Shown: piece after piece, positions 27,079 to 34,097 of the stretch | How the letters are laid out: each line of letters starts with the position of its first letter | Position numbering within the stretch: position 1 is the first letter of the stretch | NCBI GenBank assembly: GCA_012269745.1 | Contig: JAAXJR010000036.1 | Coordinates: forward strand, 2,556-36,652 | Direction of reading: 5' to 3' | DNA from: Flavobacteriales bacterium | GTDB taxonomy: Bacteria; Bacteroidota; Bacteroidia; Flavobacteriales; Schleiferiaceae | DNA length: 34,097 nucleotides | Position numbers and translations under genes: made by a program | The notes under the pieces: model-generated | Databases searched by the model: none | What the model was told of the DNA's origin: nothing | The model's input: the letters and a program-made list of their open reading frames with translations, nothing else

Positions 27079-28302
27079 ATGAATAACGTTGTAGTCATAG
27101 GAGGCGGTGCCGCCGGATTCTTTGCAGCTATTGCTTGCGCCGAGGCCAATCCGGACATGAATGTCTTGCTGCTTGAAAAAGGCAAGGATGTTTTGGGCAA
27201 GGTTCTTATCAGTGGTGGTGGGCGCTGTAACGTAACGCATGCCTGCTTTGACCCGAAAGAATTGGCTACGTTTTATCCCCGCGGTTCAAAAGAACTCTTG
27301 GGTCCCTTCCATAAATTCCAACCAGGCGATACTATGGAATGGTTCGCTGACCGAGGCGTTGAATTAAAGATTGAAGCGGATAACCGCGTGTTTCCGGTGA
27401 CCGATTCCTCATCAACCATTGCAGATTGCCTCATTGAAATGGCTGAAGCTGTAGGGGTAGAGGTGCGTACCGGTAGTGGTGTAAAGGCGTTCACACAAAT
27501 AGAGGACGGTTCTTGGCACATTCTAACCACCAAAGGAGAAGCGCTCGAAGCTGATAAAATCATGGTCGCTCCAGGTTCTTCAAAGGCTATTTGGGACCAA
27601 TTGAAGAAAATTGGACACAAGATTGTACCTCCAGTACCTTCTTTATTCACGTTCAATATCAAGGATCCTCGTATCAAAGGTCTGAGTGGTATTAGCCTAC
27701 CGCACGCAACTGTCCAGGTCGCGAGCTCGGATCTAGAGGCCTCTGGGCCGCTACTGATCACACATTGGGGAATGAGTGGACCCGCAGTGTTGCGTTTAAG
27801 TGCATGGGGCGCGCGTGAGCTCAATGATAGATTTTACCGTTTTCCCATCCTGGTGAATTGGATAGGCAGAGACGAAGAAATGGTTGTTGCAGATTTTATG
27901 CAGGAGAAGAAGGAGAGCGGTAAAAAGAGAATAGGTAACCACGCCCACTATGAAGTCCCTTTGCGTTTGTGGAAATCTATGGTAGCTGCTTCAGGAATAG
28001 CGAATACAGCGACTTGGGGCGATATTTCTACTAAACAGGTTAAAGCCTTGGCGAGCGAACTTTGTAGTGCAGTTTTCCAAGTCGCGGGCAAGAGTACTTT
28101 TAAGGAAGAATTTGTCACTGCCGGTGGAGTAGACCTCAAGGATGTGAACTTCAAGACGTTCTCTTCTAAGGTGGTTTCGAATTTATACTTTGCTGGTGAA
28201 ATCCTAGATATAGACGGCATTACAGGCGGATTCAACTTCCAAGCGGCTTGGACGGGAGGTTTCCTTGCAGGCAATGCTATGGCAGGTTTTCCACTAGATT
28301 AA
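27079..28302 (+). CDS. HI0933-like FAD flavoprotein (BaiN/YhiN, aminoacetone oxidase family)
   Basis: 407 residues. Dinucleotide motif GGGAAGF (8-14) binds FAD; SGGGRCNVTH (45-54) is the family signature; the C-terminal AGEILDIDGITGGFNFQAAWTGGF closes the FAD site. The family members characterised act on diverse substrates, including bile-acid intermediates for BaiN, and its general role is unresolved; I make no substrate claim. It is cytosolic. The 3' end overlaps the convergent helical-repeat gene by 9 bases. Confidence 0.9.
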   Translation: MNNVVVIGGGAAGFFAAIACAEANPDMNVLLLEKGKDVLGKVLISGGGRCNVTHACFDPKELATFYPRGSKELLGPFHKFQPGDTMEWFADRGVELKIEADNRVFPVTDSSSTIADCLIEMAEAVGVEVRTGSGVKAFTQIEDGSWHILTTKGEALEADKIMVAPGSSKAIWDQLKKIGHKIVPPVPSLFTFNIKDPRIKGLSGISLPHATVQVASSDLEASGPLLITHWGMSGPAVLRLSAWGARELNDRFYRFPILVNWIGRDEEMVVADFMQEKKESGKKRIGNHAHYEVPLRLWKSMVAASGIANTATWGDISTKQVKALASELCSAVFQVAGKSTFKEEFVTAGGVDLKDVNFKTFSSKVVSNLYFAGEILDIDGITGGFNFQAAWTGGFLAGNAMAGFPLD

Positions 28303-28830
28303 ACCCCGCTTTTGAAGGTCTTTCAAGATCTTTTGACCCCGATTCTTCATTCCAGCGCTCCCATTTTCTAATACCATATCAATACTTTCTGCAAGTTCGT
28401 GGGCCAATTCTGGGTACCGCAGTACCAGTTTATGAATGATGCTCATGCTGTACACTCTTGGTGCTACTGCCTCGCTGGGTGTAAGCAACACTTTGAAGCA
28501 ATAATCCAATAATTCGCCTTCGCGTTCCTCGTGTCTAGGTAATCTGTATTTCGAATAATAGCGAAGTATGAATCTTACTTCTGCATCTGTAATGGTATGC
28601 TGTAGCTGTTCTATCATCATTTCCTCCTTAACATAAAACACCTCTGGACGTCGATCACTGACGTGATGTAGGATCCAATTCGCCCTTTTGCGCTCTTTCT
28701 CACTTCCATTAAAAGCGCGTTCCATGACTTCGCTAAGCTTATTTCTGTCTTCGGCCGCCCATTGTATCCATCCTTGATACACATGGTCTTTGTCAATAGT
28801 GAACTGGTTTAGAGCGGTTTTTAGGTCCAT
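28294..28830 (-). CDS. All-helical HEAT-like protein of unknown function
   Basis: 178 residues, almost entirely predicted helix (EVMERAFNGSEKERKRANWILHHVSDRRPEVF, EVRFILRYYSKYRLPRHEEREGELLDYCFKVLL, PRVYSMSIIHKLVLRYPELAHELAESIDMVLENG). The repeating pattern of about 35 residues with HHVSDRRPE resembles ARM/HEAT repeats used for protein binding. No catalytic motif or signal peptide is seen. It lies divergent from the LexA-like regulator across an 88-base AT-rich gap with a palindrome, so the two might share regulation. Function unknown. Confidence 0.75.
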   Translation of the reverse strand: MDLKTALNQFTIDKDHVYQGWIQWAAEDRNKLSEVMERAFNGSEKERKRANWILHHVSDRRPEVFYVKEEMMIEQLQHTITDAEVRFILRYYSKYRLPRHEEREGELLDYCFKVLLTPSEAVAPRVYSMSIIHKLVLRYPELAHELAESIDMVLENGSAGMKNRGQKILKDLQKRGLI

Positions 28831-28864: not shown

Positions 28865-28878
28865 ATTAGAAATCTAAT
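28865..28878. promoter_or_regulatory. Candidate operator between the HEAT-like gene and the S24 regulator
   Basis: ATTAGA-AA-TCTAAT, a perfect 6-bp inverted repeat, in the AT-rich divergent intergenic region 28831-28918. A further half-site, AATTAG (28881-28886), follows. It is a reasonable autoregulatory site for the S24 repressor, but AT-rich palindromes arise easily by chance. Confidence 0.3.
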
Positions 28879-28918
28879 TAAATTAGCATTGTAAAACTAC
28901 CGATTAAAGATAGGTCTT

Positions 28919-29701
28919 ATGAATTACGTAAAAAACAACCTCAAATTTCTTCGCAAGAAGGAGGCGCTTACACAAGAGCAGTTGGCAACGAAGATTGGCG
29001 TTAAACGCGCCATGATTGGTGCATATGAAGAGGGAAGGGCGGAACCTAGATTGCATACGTTGCAGCATTTAGCGGCGTATTTTCAGGTGCGCTTGGACGA
29101 TTTCGTAAACAAAGACCTTAGCGGTTCTGGCTCTATCCCTAAGGCGGATGTAAGCGGTGCACAACTGCGTATCCTTCCTGTTATCGTAGACGGTACAGAG
29201 GAGAAAGAGCTGGGCACGCTAGTACCTGTTAAAGCTTCTGCAGGCTATCTGTCGGGCTATGGCGACGCAGATTACATCGGCGCCCTACCTCGTTTTTCTA
29301 TGCCGTTCCCTGAACTCCCACAGGACCGTACATACCGCGTTTTCCAAATTCGCGGCGAGAGCATGCTTCCCATTAAACCCGGATCTTATGTCATTACTGA
29401 ATACATCCAGGATTGGAAGTCCATTCGCAATGACGAATGTTATGTCCTTATTACTAAGGATGAAGGCGTAGTATACAAGCGTGTCATCAACAACTTACAC
29501 ATCGGTGAACTCATGCTAAAGTCGGACAATCCTCAGTTCGCACCATATACCGTTCCTGTAGACCGCCTGGTTGAAGTGTGGCGCGCTGTGGGGTACACCA
29601 GTTTCGAATTACCTGCCGCAGGAAGTAACCAAGACATGTCGCAGATTATGCACATGATGGCAGATTTGAAAAAGGAAATGAATCAGCTGAAAGACAACTA
29701 A
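28919..29701 (+). CDS. LexA-like XRE/S24 self-cleaving regulator
   Basis: 260 residues. N-terminal Cro/CI helix-turn-helix (about 6-60: RKKEALTQEQLATKIGVKRAMIGAYEEGR). The C-terminal peptidase S24 domain has Ser148 in RGESMLP and Lys187 in VVYKRV as the catalytic dyad, and a candidate cleavage bond Ala108-Gly109 in KASAGYL. The last 20 residues form a coiled coil. Such repressors are cut when RecA is activated by damaged DNA. The next genes encode DinB, an SRAP protein and a DnaE2-like subunit, so it is probably their damage-responsive regulator. It is not orthodox LexA, whose HTH is a winged type. Confidence 0.9.
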   Translation: MNYVKNNLKFLRKKEALTQEQLATKIGVKRAMIGAYEEGRAEPRLHTLQHLAAYFQVRLDDFVNKDLSGSGSIPKADVSGAQLRILPVIVDGTEEKELGTLVPVKASAGYLSGYGDADYIGALPRFSMPFPELPQDRTYRVFQIRGESMLPIKPGSYVITEYIQDWKSIRNDECYVLITKDEGVVYKRVINNLHIGELMLKSDNPQFAPYTVPVDRLVEVWRAVGYTSFELPAAGSNQDMSQIMHMMADLKKEMNQLKDN

Positions 29702-29738
29702 TTAATACCCTATTTTACTGGATTTTCTCCTTCAAATT

Positions 29739-29758
29739 GAGCGGCTCTTGGGCCGCTC
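29739..29758 (+). other. GC-rich hairpin between the regulator and dinB
   Basis: GAGCGGC (29739-29745) and GCCGCTC (29752-29758), loop TCTTGG, perfect 7-bp stem. The following bases are GACTTGCC with no T-run, so it is not a good terminator. It may weaken or protect the transcript entering dinB, or be an operator. Confidence 0.45.
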
Positions 29759-29791
29759 GACTTGCCTGAGGACTGTCCAAACCCTGCCCAA

Positions 29792-31003
29792 ATGGAACGT
29801 TCAATCCTACATATGGACCTCGACACCTTCTTTGTTTCTGTCGAAAGATTGATGGATTCAAGGCTGAATAACCGTCCCATCATTATCGGTGGAACCGGAG
29901 ATAGAGGCGTGGTTGCCGCCTGTAGTTACGAGACCCGTAAGTTTGGTGTCCACTCCGCCATGCCCGTTCGCATGGCTCGTGAACTCTGCCCAGAAGCCAT
30001 TATTATCCGGGGGAATTCCGCGAACTACTCCAAATATTCCAACCTAGTTACGGACGTAATCAAAGAGCAGGTTCCCGTCTATGAGAAAACCTCTGTCGAC
30101 GAATTTTATGCCGACCTCACAGGCATGGACCGCTTCTTCGGTACCTTCAAATTCTCAAGTGAGCTTCGAGACCGTGTTATTCGCGAAACAGGACTCCCCA
30201 TCAGCTTTGGTCTTTCCATAAACAAGACAGTGAGCAAGGTTGCTACAGGTGAAGCCAAGCCCAACAACAAGATCTATGTAGAAAAAGGTCTCGAGCGTCC
30301 TTTCTTAGCGCCCTTATCAGTGCGTAAAATCCCAATGGTAGGAGAGAAGACCTACCAGACCCTGCGTAACCTTGGTGTACGGCGCATCCAAACTTTGCAG
30401 GAAATGCCACTAGAGATGATGCAAAGTGTTATGGGAAAGCACGGCTCGGTCATTTGGCACAAGGCTCAGGGCGTAGACCAAAGTGCCGTGATCCCATACC
30501 AGGAACGCAAGAGCATCTCTACGGAACGCACTTTTGCTAAGGACACCATTGATGTGGTCAAACTCGAGGGCATCATTGTAGCCATGGCCGAAAACCTAGC
30601 TTACCAGCTTCGCAGAGGAGATAAACTCACCTCGTGCATTACTGTGAAAATCCGCTATTCAGATTTCAATACGCACACCCTTCAGGCCCGTATTCCTTAC
30701 ACAGCTGCCGACCATGTACTCATTCCTAAGGTAAAAGAGCTCTTCAAACGCCTCTTCGAGCGTCGTCTTCTAGTACGATTAGTGGGCGTCCGCTTCTCGC
30801 ATCTTGTGGGCGGTGGCTACCAGATGAACCTCTTTGAAGAAAGTGAAGAGTTGAGCCGTCTATACGGTGCCATGGACCACATCCGTCAGCGCTTTGGCGA
30901 TCGCTCGGTGCTGCGTGCTGTGAGCCTAGGCGCCAAGACCATAGGGCGTACTAACCCGTTCAATGGAGAACCACCGCCGTTATTGGCCAATAGACATCGA
31001 TAA
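29792..31003 (+). CDS. dinB: DNA polymerase IV (Y-family)
   Basis: 403 residues from the ATG at 29792; a TTG 30 bases earlier is rejected because the family N-terminus starts at MERSILHMDLDTFF. This error-prone polymerase copies past damaged bases. Metal-binding Asp9 and Asp103-Glu104 (SVDEFYADLTGMDRFFG) are intact, so it should be catalytically active. The little-finger domain follows, and QMNLF (344-348) is a beta-clamp binding motif. It lies between the S24 regulator and an SRAP gene. Confidence 0.95.
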   Translation: MERSILHMDLDTFFVSVERLMDSRLNNRPIIIGGTGDRGVVAACSYETRKFGVHSAMPVRMARELCPEAIIIRGNSANYSKYSNLVTDVIKEQVPVYEKTSVDEFYADLTGMDRFFGTFKFSSELRDRVIRETGLPISFGLSINKTVSKVATGEAKPNNKIYVEKGLERPFLAPLSVRKIPMVGEKTYQTLRNLGVRRIQTLQEMPLEMMQSVMGKHGSVIWHKAQGVDQSAVIPYQERKSISTERTFAKDTIDVVKLEGIIVAMAENLAYQLRRGDKLTSCITVKIRYSDFNTHTLQARIPYTAADHVLIPKVKELFKRLFERRLLVRLVGVRFSHLVGGGYQMNLFEESEELSRLYGAMDHIRQRFGDRSVLRAVSLGAKTIGRTNPFNGEPPPLLANRHR

Positions 31004-31027
31004 AAGAACTAACTTAATACTCCGCAT

Positions 31028-31837
31028 ATGTGTGGTAGATACGTAAATATCAGTAAGATTAAGGCCGTTGAAAAACGCTTTAGCGCTATTGTAGAGCGCC
31101 CAGACCTCTATGCACCCAATACCAACATAGGCATTGGGACCGTGGCGCCAGTCATTACTCAGGAACGTCCGGATGTGATCAAACACTACCAGTTCGGCTT
31201 TACGCCCTATTGGGCAAAGAAACCGTTCCACCTGTTCAATGCCCGCTCGGAAGGCGACCACAACAAGGAAAACGATACTTCCTACCGCGGTGCTAAGGGT
31301 ATTACTACTAAGCCTGCTTTTCGTCAAAGCATACGCTCGAAGCGTTGCTTAGTCTTGGCAGATGCTTTTATTGAAGGTCCTAAGGTTGAGCGCTTGTCAA
31401 AGCCCTATGTGATGTACAAGAGAGACGGCAGTCCCTTTGCTTTTGCGGGCATCTACGATACTTGGGTGAACCCAGATACCGGTGAAATGATCGACTCTTT
31501 TGCCATCATCACTACGGTGAGCAACAAGATCACAGCAGCCATTTCTCACCACCGCTCCCCAGTGATCCTTCATGAAGAAGACGAGAGTATTTGGCTAGAC
31601 CCAACTACACCCTTGGCAGAGGTAACAGATGTGCTTCAGCCTTATCCAGCAGAGGAGCTCAATGCATATCCTATTTCAGCGGCGATAAAGAATCCTAGGA
31701 GCAACGGTCCAGAGCTACTCAAACCCATAGGTCAGCGCATTATCCCTGAATACGATTATGAGATCTATTCCCACCTCAGTCTACAGGGAATGGGAATGAC
31801 TCAGGCACGGCAACGCAAGCTAGATTTCGGTTTCTAA
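31028..31837 (+). CDS. SOS response-associated peptidase (YedK/HMCES, SRAP)
   Basis: 269 residues. The catalytic Cys2 (MCGRY) becomes the N-terminal residue after Met removal and forms a stable thiazolidine crosslink with abasic sites in single-stranded DNA. Other SRAP residues are in place: Asn71 (NARSEG), Glu116 (AFIEGPK, usually GYYEW) and the His-Arg-Pro motif at 174-178 (SHHRSPV). It shields abasic sites that stall replication. The gene starts 24 bases after dinB and leads into the DnaE2-like gene (20-base gap), consistent with one damage-response operon. Confidence 0.94.
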   Translation: MCGRYVNISKIKAVEKRFSAIVERPDLYAPNTNIGIGTVAPVITQERPDVIKHYQFGFTPYWAKKPFHLFNARSEGDHNKENDTSYRGAKGITTKPAFRQSIRSKRCLVLADAFIEGPKVERLSKPYVMYKRDGSPFAFAGIYDTWVNPDTGEMIDSFAIITTVSNKITAAISHHRSPVILHEEDESIWLDPTTPLAEVTDVLQPYPAEELNAYPISAAIKNPRSNGPELLKPIGQRIIPEYDYEIYSHLSLQGMGMTQARQRKLDFGF

Positions 31838-31857
31838 ACAGCACTTAATTTTCTACA

Positions 31858-34097
31858 ATGCTCGTAAATACGCACAGTTACTACAGTTTGCGTTATGGGG
31901 CCGTGTCCCCTAAAGATTGGGTTAGCTTCTTTGAGGCACAGCCCTGGACACACATGGCCCTAACCGATATCAACAATACATCGGCGTGTATGACCGCATT
32001 GTACCTGCTAAAAGACAATGCTGCCAAACACCCCGTCATCGGTGTCGATTTCAGAAACGGCACACAGCAGAAATATGTTGTCTTGGCGCGTAATTGGGAA
32101 GGGTTTAAACAGATCAACGACCACCTGTCGTGGCATTTGGCCCACAAGGTAAAGTTTCCCGACCGCGCCCCTGTGACCGATTTGCCGGACACCTGGATCA
32201 TTTACAAGAACTACGAAGCCGTTGATGTCCAATCCTTAAAGAACAACGAGCTCATCGGCGTTGTGCCGGAGCTTATCAGCTCGTTACACATTCATAAGTT
32301 GCATGCTCACCAGCACAAACTCATCGCTTTGCCAACAGCTACATTCCGCGGCAAGCGCGACTTCAACGCGCACCGTCTGTTGCGTGCTATCGATGAAAAC
32401 ACCTTGCTGAGCAAGCTCGAGAAGGACAAGCAAGCACCGCCGACAGATTTATACCTAAACGACGAAGATTTAAGGTCTACCTACAAAGAGTACCCGTGGC
32501 TGCTGCGCAATGCTGAACAAGTGTTGGAATCTTGCCAGGTTGAGCTGCCAGAAGATCCCGCGTTAAACCTTCAGACCTACACAGGGTCCCGTGAAAAAGA
32601 CGTCAAACTTTTGAAGAAGCTGTGCTACGATGGGTTGACCTACCGTTATCCACAGGCCGATTTCAAGGTACGTGAAAGGATAGAAAAGGAATTGCAACTC
32701 ATTGAGCAAAAGAACTTTGTATCCTACTTTTTGATCAATTGGGACATCGTGAACTATGCCCAAAAGCGCGGCTATTTCTACGTAGGGCGGGGGAGTGGAG
32801 CTAATTCTATCGTAGCCTACCTGCTCAAAATAACGGATGTCGACCCCATTGAGCTCGACTTATATTTTGAACGCTTCATCAACCTTTATCGAACGTCACC
32901 TCCAGATTTCGACCTCGATTTCTCTTGGCGCGACCGTGATGATATCACCCAATACATCTTCAAGCGTTTCCCCAATACCGCCTTGCTGGCAACCTATAAC
33001 ACCTTTCAGTACAAAGCGGTAGTACGAGAACTAGGAAAGGTGTTCGGTCTCCCAAAACACGAGATTGACAAGCTTAGCATAGGAAAATTCAATAGCGGAG
33101 ACCTGGACCATCTCGCGCACCTTGTATTGCGATACAGCACTTATATACAGGGTTTTCCAAGTCATTTGAGCATACATGCAGGAGGGATTCTTATTGCCAA
33201 TGATAGCATACACTACCGCACAGCGACCTTCATGCCGCCCAAAGGCTTTCCAACGGCCCAGTTTGATATGGTCGTTGCAGAAGATATAGGCCTTCATAAA
33301 TTTGACATCTTGAGCCAGAGGGGACTGAGTAAAATTCAAGATGCATTGGCGCTGGTACGCAGAAACCATAAAAACGCCGAACCTTTCGATATCAGAGACC
33401 TGCAGCGGTTTAAGGAAGATGAAAAAGTGAAGGATTTATTGAGAAACGGCAAGGCCACTGGGTGCTTCTACGTAGAATCTCCAGCCATGCGCATGTTGTT
33501 GACCAAGCTTCGGGTAGATACCTATTTAGGACTCGTTGCTGCAAGTTCTATTATCCGGCCAGGTGTGAGTAACAGCGGTATGATGCGAGAGTATATTCTT
33601 CGCTTTACCGATCCTTCAAAGCGCAAAGATGCACATCCAGTGATGTTGGAGATCATGCCGGATACCTTTGGGGTGATGGTCTACCAGGAAGATGTCATCA
33701 AAGTAGCACACTATTTCGCTGGTTTAACCTTGGGAGAAGCCGATGTTTTACGCCGTGGTATGTCTGGTAAATTCAGGTCAAGAGATGAGTTTAAACGCGT
33801 TGAACAGCAGTACTTTAAGAACTGTAAGGAGCGCGGCTATTCAGATGATTTGGCCCGAGAGATATGGCGGCAGATTGAGAGCTTTGCGGGCTATGCCTTT
33901 GCTAAGGGACACAGCGCATCCTATGCAGTGGAGAGTTACCAAAGCTTGTATTTGAAGGCACATTATCCTTTAGAATACATGGTGGCTACCATCAATAATT
34001 TTGGTGGATTTTACCGCACTGAATTTTATGTTCATGAAGCACGTAAAAACGGCGGTAGGATAGAGCCTCCTTGCGTGCAACACGGCGATTATCCAAC
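31858..34097 (+). CDS. DNA polymerase III alpha subunit, DnaE2/ImuC-like (3' end outside window)
   Basis: Open from the ATG at 31858 to the window end (746 codons) with no stop. N-terminal PHP segment LVNTHSYYSLRYG has Asn where the first metal-binding His of HxH normally stands. Polymerase core: GRGSGANSIVAYLLKITDVDP, catalytic Asp350 and Asp352 in PDFDLDF, third Asp483 in HKFDILSQRGL, SIHAGGILIAN. Context after DinB and SRAP, and the short segment between PHP and core, indicate the error-prone second alpha subunit rather than the main replicase. It probably extends translesion products. Confidence 0.92.
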   Translation, partial: MLVNTHSYYSLRYGAVSPKDWVSFFEAQPWTHMALTDINNTSACMTALYLLKDNAAKHPVIGVDFRNGTQQKYVVLARNWEGFKQINDHLSWHLAHKVKFPDRAPVTDLPDTWIIYKNYEAVDVQSLKNNELIGVVPELISSLHIHKLHAHQHKLIALPTATFRGKRDFNAHRLLRAIDENTLLSKLEKDKQAPPTDLYLNDEDLRSTYKEYPWLLRNAEQVLESCQVELPEDPALNLQTYTGSREKDVKLLKKLCYDGLTYRYPQADFKVRERIEKELQLIEQKNFVSYFLINWDIVNYAQKRGYFYVGRGSGANSIVAYLLKITDVDPIELDLYFERFINLYRTSPPDFDLDFSWRDRDDITQYIFKRFPNTALLATYNTFQYKAVVRELGKVFGLPKHEIDKLSIGKFNSGDLDHLAHLVLRYSTYIQGFPSHLSIHAGGILIANDSIHYRTATFMPPKGFPTAQFDMVVAEDIGLHKFDILSQRGLSKIQDALALVRRNHKNAEPFDIRDLQRFKEDEKVKDLLRNGKATGCFYVESPAMRMLLTKLRVDTYLGLVAASSIIRPGVSNSGMMREYILRFTDPSKRKDAHPVMLEIMPDTFGVMVYQEDVIKVAHYFAGLTLGEADVLRRGMSGKFRSRDEFKRVEQQYFKNCKERGYSDDLAREIWRQIESFAGYAFAKGHSASYAVESYQSLYLKAHYPLEYMVATINNFGGFYRTEFYVHEARKNGGRIEPPCVQHGDYP

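Follow-up and report, generated by a model that had tools for sequence, protein, structure and literature searches.

The four adjacent plus-strand genes that begin at position 28919 of the window, a 34,097-nucleotide stretch of contig JAAXJR010000036.1 from a Flavobacteriales bacterium (assembly GCA_012269745.1), are very probably an SOS mutagenesis operon, in which a non-canonical LexA controls a DinB-DnaE2 mutasome with a SRAP protein beside it. The list of open reading frames (ORFs) gives, in order, an S24/HTH repressor, DinB, SRAP and a second DnaE. The Pfam matches follow the same order: HTH_3 and Peptidase_S24, IMS and IMS_C, SRAP, and DNA_pol3_alpha with the finger domain. The initial annotation had placed a damage-response cassette of these four families here, and both the place and the families were borne out. 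The features of the locus are listed below.

28866..28886, no strand: operator CTAA-N5-TTAG at 28874-28886, with TTAG-N4 ahead of it from 28866 (exact published motif, PMC8565304)
28919..29701, plus strand: putative non-canonical LexA (HTH_3 and S24 peptidase), 260 amino acids (ORF, Pfam, alignment)
29240-29245, plus strand: predicted scissile Ala108-Gly109 of the S24 repressor (alignment)
29360-29362, plus strand: Ser148 of the S24 repressor (alignment)
29477-29479, plus strand: Lys187 of the S24 repressor (alignment)
29739..29758, plus strand: predicted RNA hairpin GAGCGGC-loop-GCCGCTC (genome motif scan, fold)
29792..31003, plus strand: DinB with intact active site, 403 amino acids (ORF, Pfam, NCBIfam, alignment)
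30821..30835, plus strand: QMNLF clamp-binding-like motif, DinB residues 344-348 (alignment)
30836..30916, plus strand: RecA-N-terminus-like segment, DinB residues 349-375 (profile comparison)
31028..31837, plus strand: SRAP protein, 269 amino acids (Pfam, alignment, structure matches)
31858..34097, plus strand: second DNA polymerase III alpha subunit (DnaE2-like), N-terminal 746 amino acids, continuing beyond the window

The genes and their catalytic residues are read directly from the sequence. DinB had been called catalytically intact, and Asp9, Asp103 and Glu104 are indeed kept in all 48 aligned DinBs. This numbering belongs to the ATG at 29792, a better start than the TTG at 29762 of the ORF list. 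The protein exceeds the NCBIfam Pol IV model PRK02406 (267 bits, cut-off 256). In the cassette DnaE, D350, D352 and D483 are conserved in 58/58 sequences and align with the PDFD and KFD motifs of E. coli alpha, which we take to be catalytic. SRAP aligns with solved YedK and HMCES-type chains; its C2, N71, E116 and H174, presumably the equivalents of the YedK active-site Cys2, Asn, Glu and His, are invariant in the aligned set (8/8). In a wider set C2 is present in 15 of 16 proteins, the exception (L113) being truncated where its contig stops. Judged by these residues, the two polymerases and SRAP all seem active, and the sequence supports the arrangement that the initial annotation had drawn, two polymerases with intact catalytic residues and SRAP behind one damage-type repressor.

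The first gene has the features of the Bacteroidetes non-canonical LexA: an HTH_3-type N-terminus, an S24 C-terminus, an Ala-Gly bond, a Ser-Lys dyad and CTAA-N5-TTAG in its own promoter. The scissile pair Ala108-Gly109, predicted earlier, is present. The catalytic Ser and Lys are conserved in all 30 aligned repressors; 21 of these have Ala and nine have Met immediately ahead of the scissile Gly. CI-like S24 LexA proteins of Bacteroidetes were reported in 2021 (PMC8565304), and one group of them binds CTAA-N5-TTAG, as seen in electrophoretic mobility shift assays with mutants. The same paper reports that mitomycin C induces target genes of family members, and infers RecA-dependent cleavage from conserved residues. 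Motif binding and damage induction were demonstrated by others in other species, and would apply to the window repressor by analogy. We provisionally assign this protein to the group by its domains, residues and operator.

The operators were observed as exact matches. CTAA-N5-TTAG begins 45 bp ahead of the S24 gene, and a second copy begins 25 bp ahead of the recA start codon. In the source genome (2.27 Mb in 87 contigs, the window lying on contig 13) the exact motif has 23 places, versus 65 for the reversed control pattern; only the S24 and recA sites fall outside ORFs of at least 90 amino acids, as called by script. The extended form TTAG-N4-CTAA-N5-TTAG has two exact places in the 2.27-Mb genome, ahead of S24 and recA, and this uniqueness is partly by construction because the form was defined after both sites were known. 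Among relatives, 48 of 80 S24 loci have the exact operator no more than 150 bp ahead of the gene (79 of the 80 offer at least 150 bp of upstream sequence), versus 205 of 16,000 random 150-bp stretches from the same loci. It lies within 160 bp in 12/30 S24 promoters of the DnaE2-anchored survey described below, and paired operators stand 17 bp apart in L114 and L116.

Two other motif matches were set aside. An operator match lies 35 bp ahead of mutS (L018 1501-1513), but it is kept in only five of 18 same-genus mutS promoters, a count that leaves out two loci lacking the N-terminus and one match without a locus. Others of these mutS promoters show a TACATTTG-like box nearby, which we take to be a promoter box, and the match is probably an overlap with the promoter. 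Another published motif, GGA-N5-TCC, is not found ahead of the window S24 gene and is taken as chance elsewhere; it occurs 72 bp ahead of dinB in L003 and L081 and not in the same-genus L083 and L084.

Three further observations concern operators and their neighbours. The window operator sits 44 bp from the start of a 178-residue protein encoded divergently from the repressor (28294-28830, minus strand; no Pfam or NCBIfam match), so that the two could be co-regulated. A gene that lies some 7 kb beyond the cassette on its downstream side (L003 15252-16520, minus strand) has a product that, judged by eye, looks like a DnaQ/GIY-YIG exonuclease; the genome motif scan gave no exact operator near it. 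Exonucleases of this type are named as a putative SOS target in PMC8565304. A divergent S24 gene from another family (L133) has in its promoter TTAC-AAATT-GTAA, the published site of Elizabethkingia anophelis (PMC8565304).

Gene order was compared in two surveys, which overlap in genomes and are not independent. The DnaE2-anchored survey, with an E limit of 1e-80, searched 246 genomes belonging to the order and gave 109 places in 91 of them. Sixty of these loci, source included, were examined, and six with less than 3 kb upstream were dropped, which left 54. Here S24-DinB-SRAP-DnaE2 was observed in 13 loci, S24-SRAP-DnaE2-DinB in two and S24-DinB-DnaE2 in one; in 14 loci S24 is transcribed divergently from a linked DinB and DnaE2. 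Without S24, the order was DinB-DnaE2 in 17 loci (among them L138, where the Y-family match has only 25% identity) and DnaE2-DinB in three, and four loci had neither partner. DinB is linked to DnaE2 in 50/54 loci, and S24 is adjacent in 30/54. The S24-anchored survey took the best 80 of at least 572 relatives in named genomes. The full order is present in 18 of the 80, and two more loci reach a contig end after SRAP; the permuted S24-SRAP-DnaE2-DinB was found in four, and S24-SRAP-DnaE2 without DinB in two. The four-family synteny implied by the initial annotation thus exists in relatives, and since the arrangement is conserved there it is not due to chance. The closest named relatives among the matches listed are metagenome-assembled genomes (MAGs) labelled Flavobacteriales, Bacteroidetes, Schleiferiaceae or Cryomorphaceae, and a cultured carrier of the exact order is Phaeocystidibacter luteus LMG 25704 (L154), of the same family. 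One MAG labelled Chryseobacterium gleum (L170) probably bears a wrong label.

The source genome has two DnaE genes and a single match each for the Y-family (PF00817), S24 and the RecA family (PF00154). Among 41 genomes of the family, source included, a Y-family match is present in 40 and an S24 match in 37, often more than one. ImuA was not detected in it, the PF00154 search giving only that one match; UmuD was not detected either. Nor was ImuB, as the single PF00817 match indicates; a very divergent ImuB could escape this search. Which protein, then, may take the part of ImuA? The QMNLF motif of DinB, presumably clamp-binding, is followed directly by a segment that seems to resemble the RecA N-terminus. 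A profile of the DinB tail matched a profile of RecA N-termini with an E of 3e-5 and a probability of 73, and in pairwise comparison, which is not significant by itself, 40 of 48 DinBs have their best RecA match in the tail and eight have it at another place. An apparent DinB-DnaE2 fusion in L137 (a 1413-residue DinB) was rejected as two frames with a stop codon between them. Timinskas and Venclovas (2019; PMC6511836) proposed that a RecA-N-terminus-like motif of the Y-family polymerase serves RecA binding. By the published reasoning (PMC6511836, PMC12926913), because the end of DinB seems similar to the RecA N-terminus, RecA rather than SRAP appears to be the better candidate.

The initial annotation had instead given this part to SRAP. 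SRAP would then be an integral mutasome subunit that replaces ImuA and couples abasic-site capture to bypass, which we consider unlikely. It is in the cassette in 15/54 DnaE2 loci and stays there in the loci with permuted order; in L106 and L127 a distant SRAP match follows closely behind the cassette, and PMC12926913 ties SRAP-like proteins to UmuC-like polymerases. However, in 35/54 loci the cassette joins DinB to DnaE2 but has no SRAP, the RecA-like tail would offer RecA as the substitute, and SRAP lies outside the RecA family in Pfam. The claim that SRAP replaced ImuA is not upheld by these data. A fuller version also seems improbable to us: SRAP, as a part of a DinB-DnaE2-RecA mutasome, would cross-link abasic sites at the stalled fork and hand them to two-polymerase bypass, the cycle being set by one repressor and a polymerase-restraining hairpin.

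In the SOS mutagenesis operon that we prefer, the non-canonical LexA would bind CTAA-N5-TTAG in its own promoter and, within this genus, in that of recA as well. Filaments of RecA on damaged DNA would trigger cleavage at Ala108-Gly109, as expected from the family, and so free the operon. QMNLF would hold DinB at the clamp and the RecA-like tail would hold it at RecA, while DinB and DnaE2 would work as a two-polymerase mutasome, one inserting opposite the lesion and the other extending. SRAP proteins of the YedK/HMCES kind cap abasic sites in single-stranded DNA, and the cassette SRAP would do so at the same stalled forks, beside the mutasome and not as its ImuA.

The stretch between the repressor and dinB may add a further level of control. 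The sequence GAGCGGC-loop-GCCGCTC occurs at a single place in the genome, and the S24-dinB intergenic stretch folds with a z of -4.12. All nine predicted pairs are standard in nine of 11 genus loci, and several are broken in the other two; compensatory changes were found in none of the nine pairs across these 11 loci, which leaves a structural role unproven. No terminator was listed at this hairpin by the terminator scan, and the S24-dinB gap is 0-15 bases in the seven other-genus loci that were folded (L154, L155, L191, L197, L204, L207, L218). We infer that the hairpin may set repressor and polymerase levels apart.

Could the repressor be that of a prophage or mobile element, standing by chance beside repair genes? 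We regard this as very improbable. Its HTH_3 is of the phage-repressor type, its best NCBIfam match is the phage RstR model (50.5 bits, below the cut-off of 80), and 38 of the best 80 S24 relatives are without partner genes nearby. However, it is the only S24 match in its genome, it keeps its place ahead of the cassette across genera, and its operator also stands ahead of recA. Among the surrounding ORFs no phage genes were noticed, by eye only and with no phage library searched.

The second DnaE leaves the window at a 100-base run of N (34097; L003 from 7654), and part of its C-terminal half is hidden. It has 973 residues in the source genome, 33 of them X; in a relative from the same genus the cassette gene is complete and encodes 1015. 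The relative's protein reaches 519 bits against PRK05673, where the cut-off is 1002. Against the error-prone model PRK05672 it reaches 426 bits (cut-off 939), and against TIGR00594, the general alpha-subunit model, 487 bits (cut-off 434). The DnaE on contig C5 reaches 1197 bits on PRK05673, and the cassette gene, which the initial annotation took for a second alpha subunit, is not the sole one. Since the relative fails PRK05672 too, the DnaE2 label would rest on context and on the published grouping. We find it hardly credible that the cassette DnaE is a spare subunit for replication and that the cassette serves replication and not mutagenesis: its three aspartates are conserved and the relative passes TIGR00594, but contig C5 already encodes a standard replicative DnaE, the relative fails PRK05673 and DinB is so often linked to DnaE2.

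Several observations weigh against the operon as we propose it. The same-genus G198 (92% complete) shows neither an S24 nor a Y-family match, and its DnaE2 match is partial. The scissile bond has Met instead of Ala in 9/30 S24 proteins. The exact operator is missing from 18/30 S24 promoters of the DnaE2-anchored set, and from the promoter of the S24 gene in the cultured P. luteus. The recA operator does not extend beyond the genus: it is present in 3/3 same-genus recA loci and in 0/27 other family loci (loci were obtained for 30 of the 41 genomes). The RecA-like tail is less evident when full-length profiles are compared, the match then having the same position but an E of 0.0075 and a probability of 5, and the genome's own RecA and DinB match weakly in pairwise comparison (168 of 2000 shuffles reach the score). 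Finally, the fetched flanks of those 38 S24 loci held no partner gene; therefore the repressor family is not tied to the cassette.

How does this cassette compare with known systems? With the CTAA-N5-TTAG group of Bacteroidetes non-canonical LexA (PMC8565304) it shares HTH_3 and S24, Ala-Gly, Ser-Lys, the self-operator and the recA operator, and dinB and dnaE are among the predicted targets of that group; the source genome differs in having only two operator places, at its own operon and recA, outside the ORFs counted above. Like the imuA-imuB-dnaE2 mutasome, it joins a Y-family protein to DnaE2 under an SOS-type repressor; unlike it, the genome has no detected ImuA and the Y-family protein keeps catalytic D9, D103 and E104. 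A 2013 paper (PMC3765255) reported SRAP as an operon partner of DinB, in operons where LexA or a DnaE paralog can also occur. These are the same gene families, there as optional partners, whereas the window has all four in one fixed order; Bacteroidetes are not named in the main text of that paper (0 occurrences).

The cassette also resembles the Bacteroidetes system of an active Y-family polymerase with DnaE2 named in PMC6511836 and listed as DnaE2B-PolY-RecA in PMC12926913 (2026). The PolY2-DnaE2 or DnaE2B-PolY-RecA module shares with the cassette an active Y-family polymerase, whose tail in the cassette may be RecA-like, beside an active DnaE2, as well as the lack of a detected ImuA in the source genome; the cassette differs by SRAP between the polymerases and the repressor as first gene. 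This likeness is drawn from linkage and active sites. The exact four-gene order was not found described in the open-PMC literature, as covered by titles and abstract openings of the top-ranked results.

Nearly all parts and pairings of the cassette have been described already, and our reading is well supported and mostly ordinary. From the overall interpretation of the initial annotation, the repressor, the two active polymerases, SRAP and the synteny stand, while the ImuA replacement and the novelty do not, the polymerase system (2019, 2026), the S24 regulator (2021) and the SRAP-DinB operons (2013) being in print. The cassette is a compact example of the two-polymerase mutasome predicted for Bacteroidetes; it stands alone in its genome, and a carrier from the same family is in culture. 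It also raises a question: when the capping of abasic sites by SRAP and translesion synthesis are induced together, do they cooperate or compete? Beside the known systems, three features remain: the fixed place of SRAP within the cassette of some genera, the recA operator seen in this genus only, and the genus-conserved hairpin.

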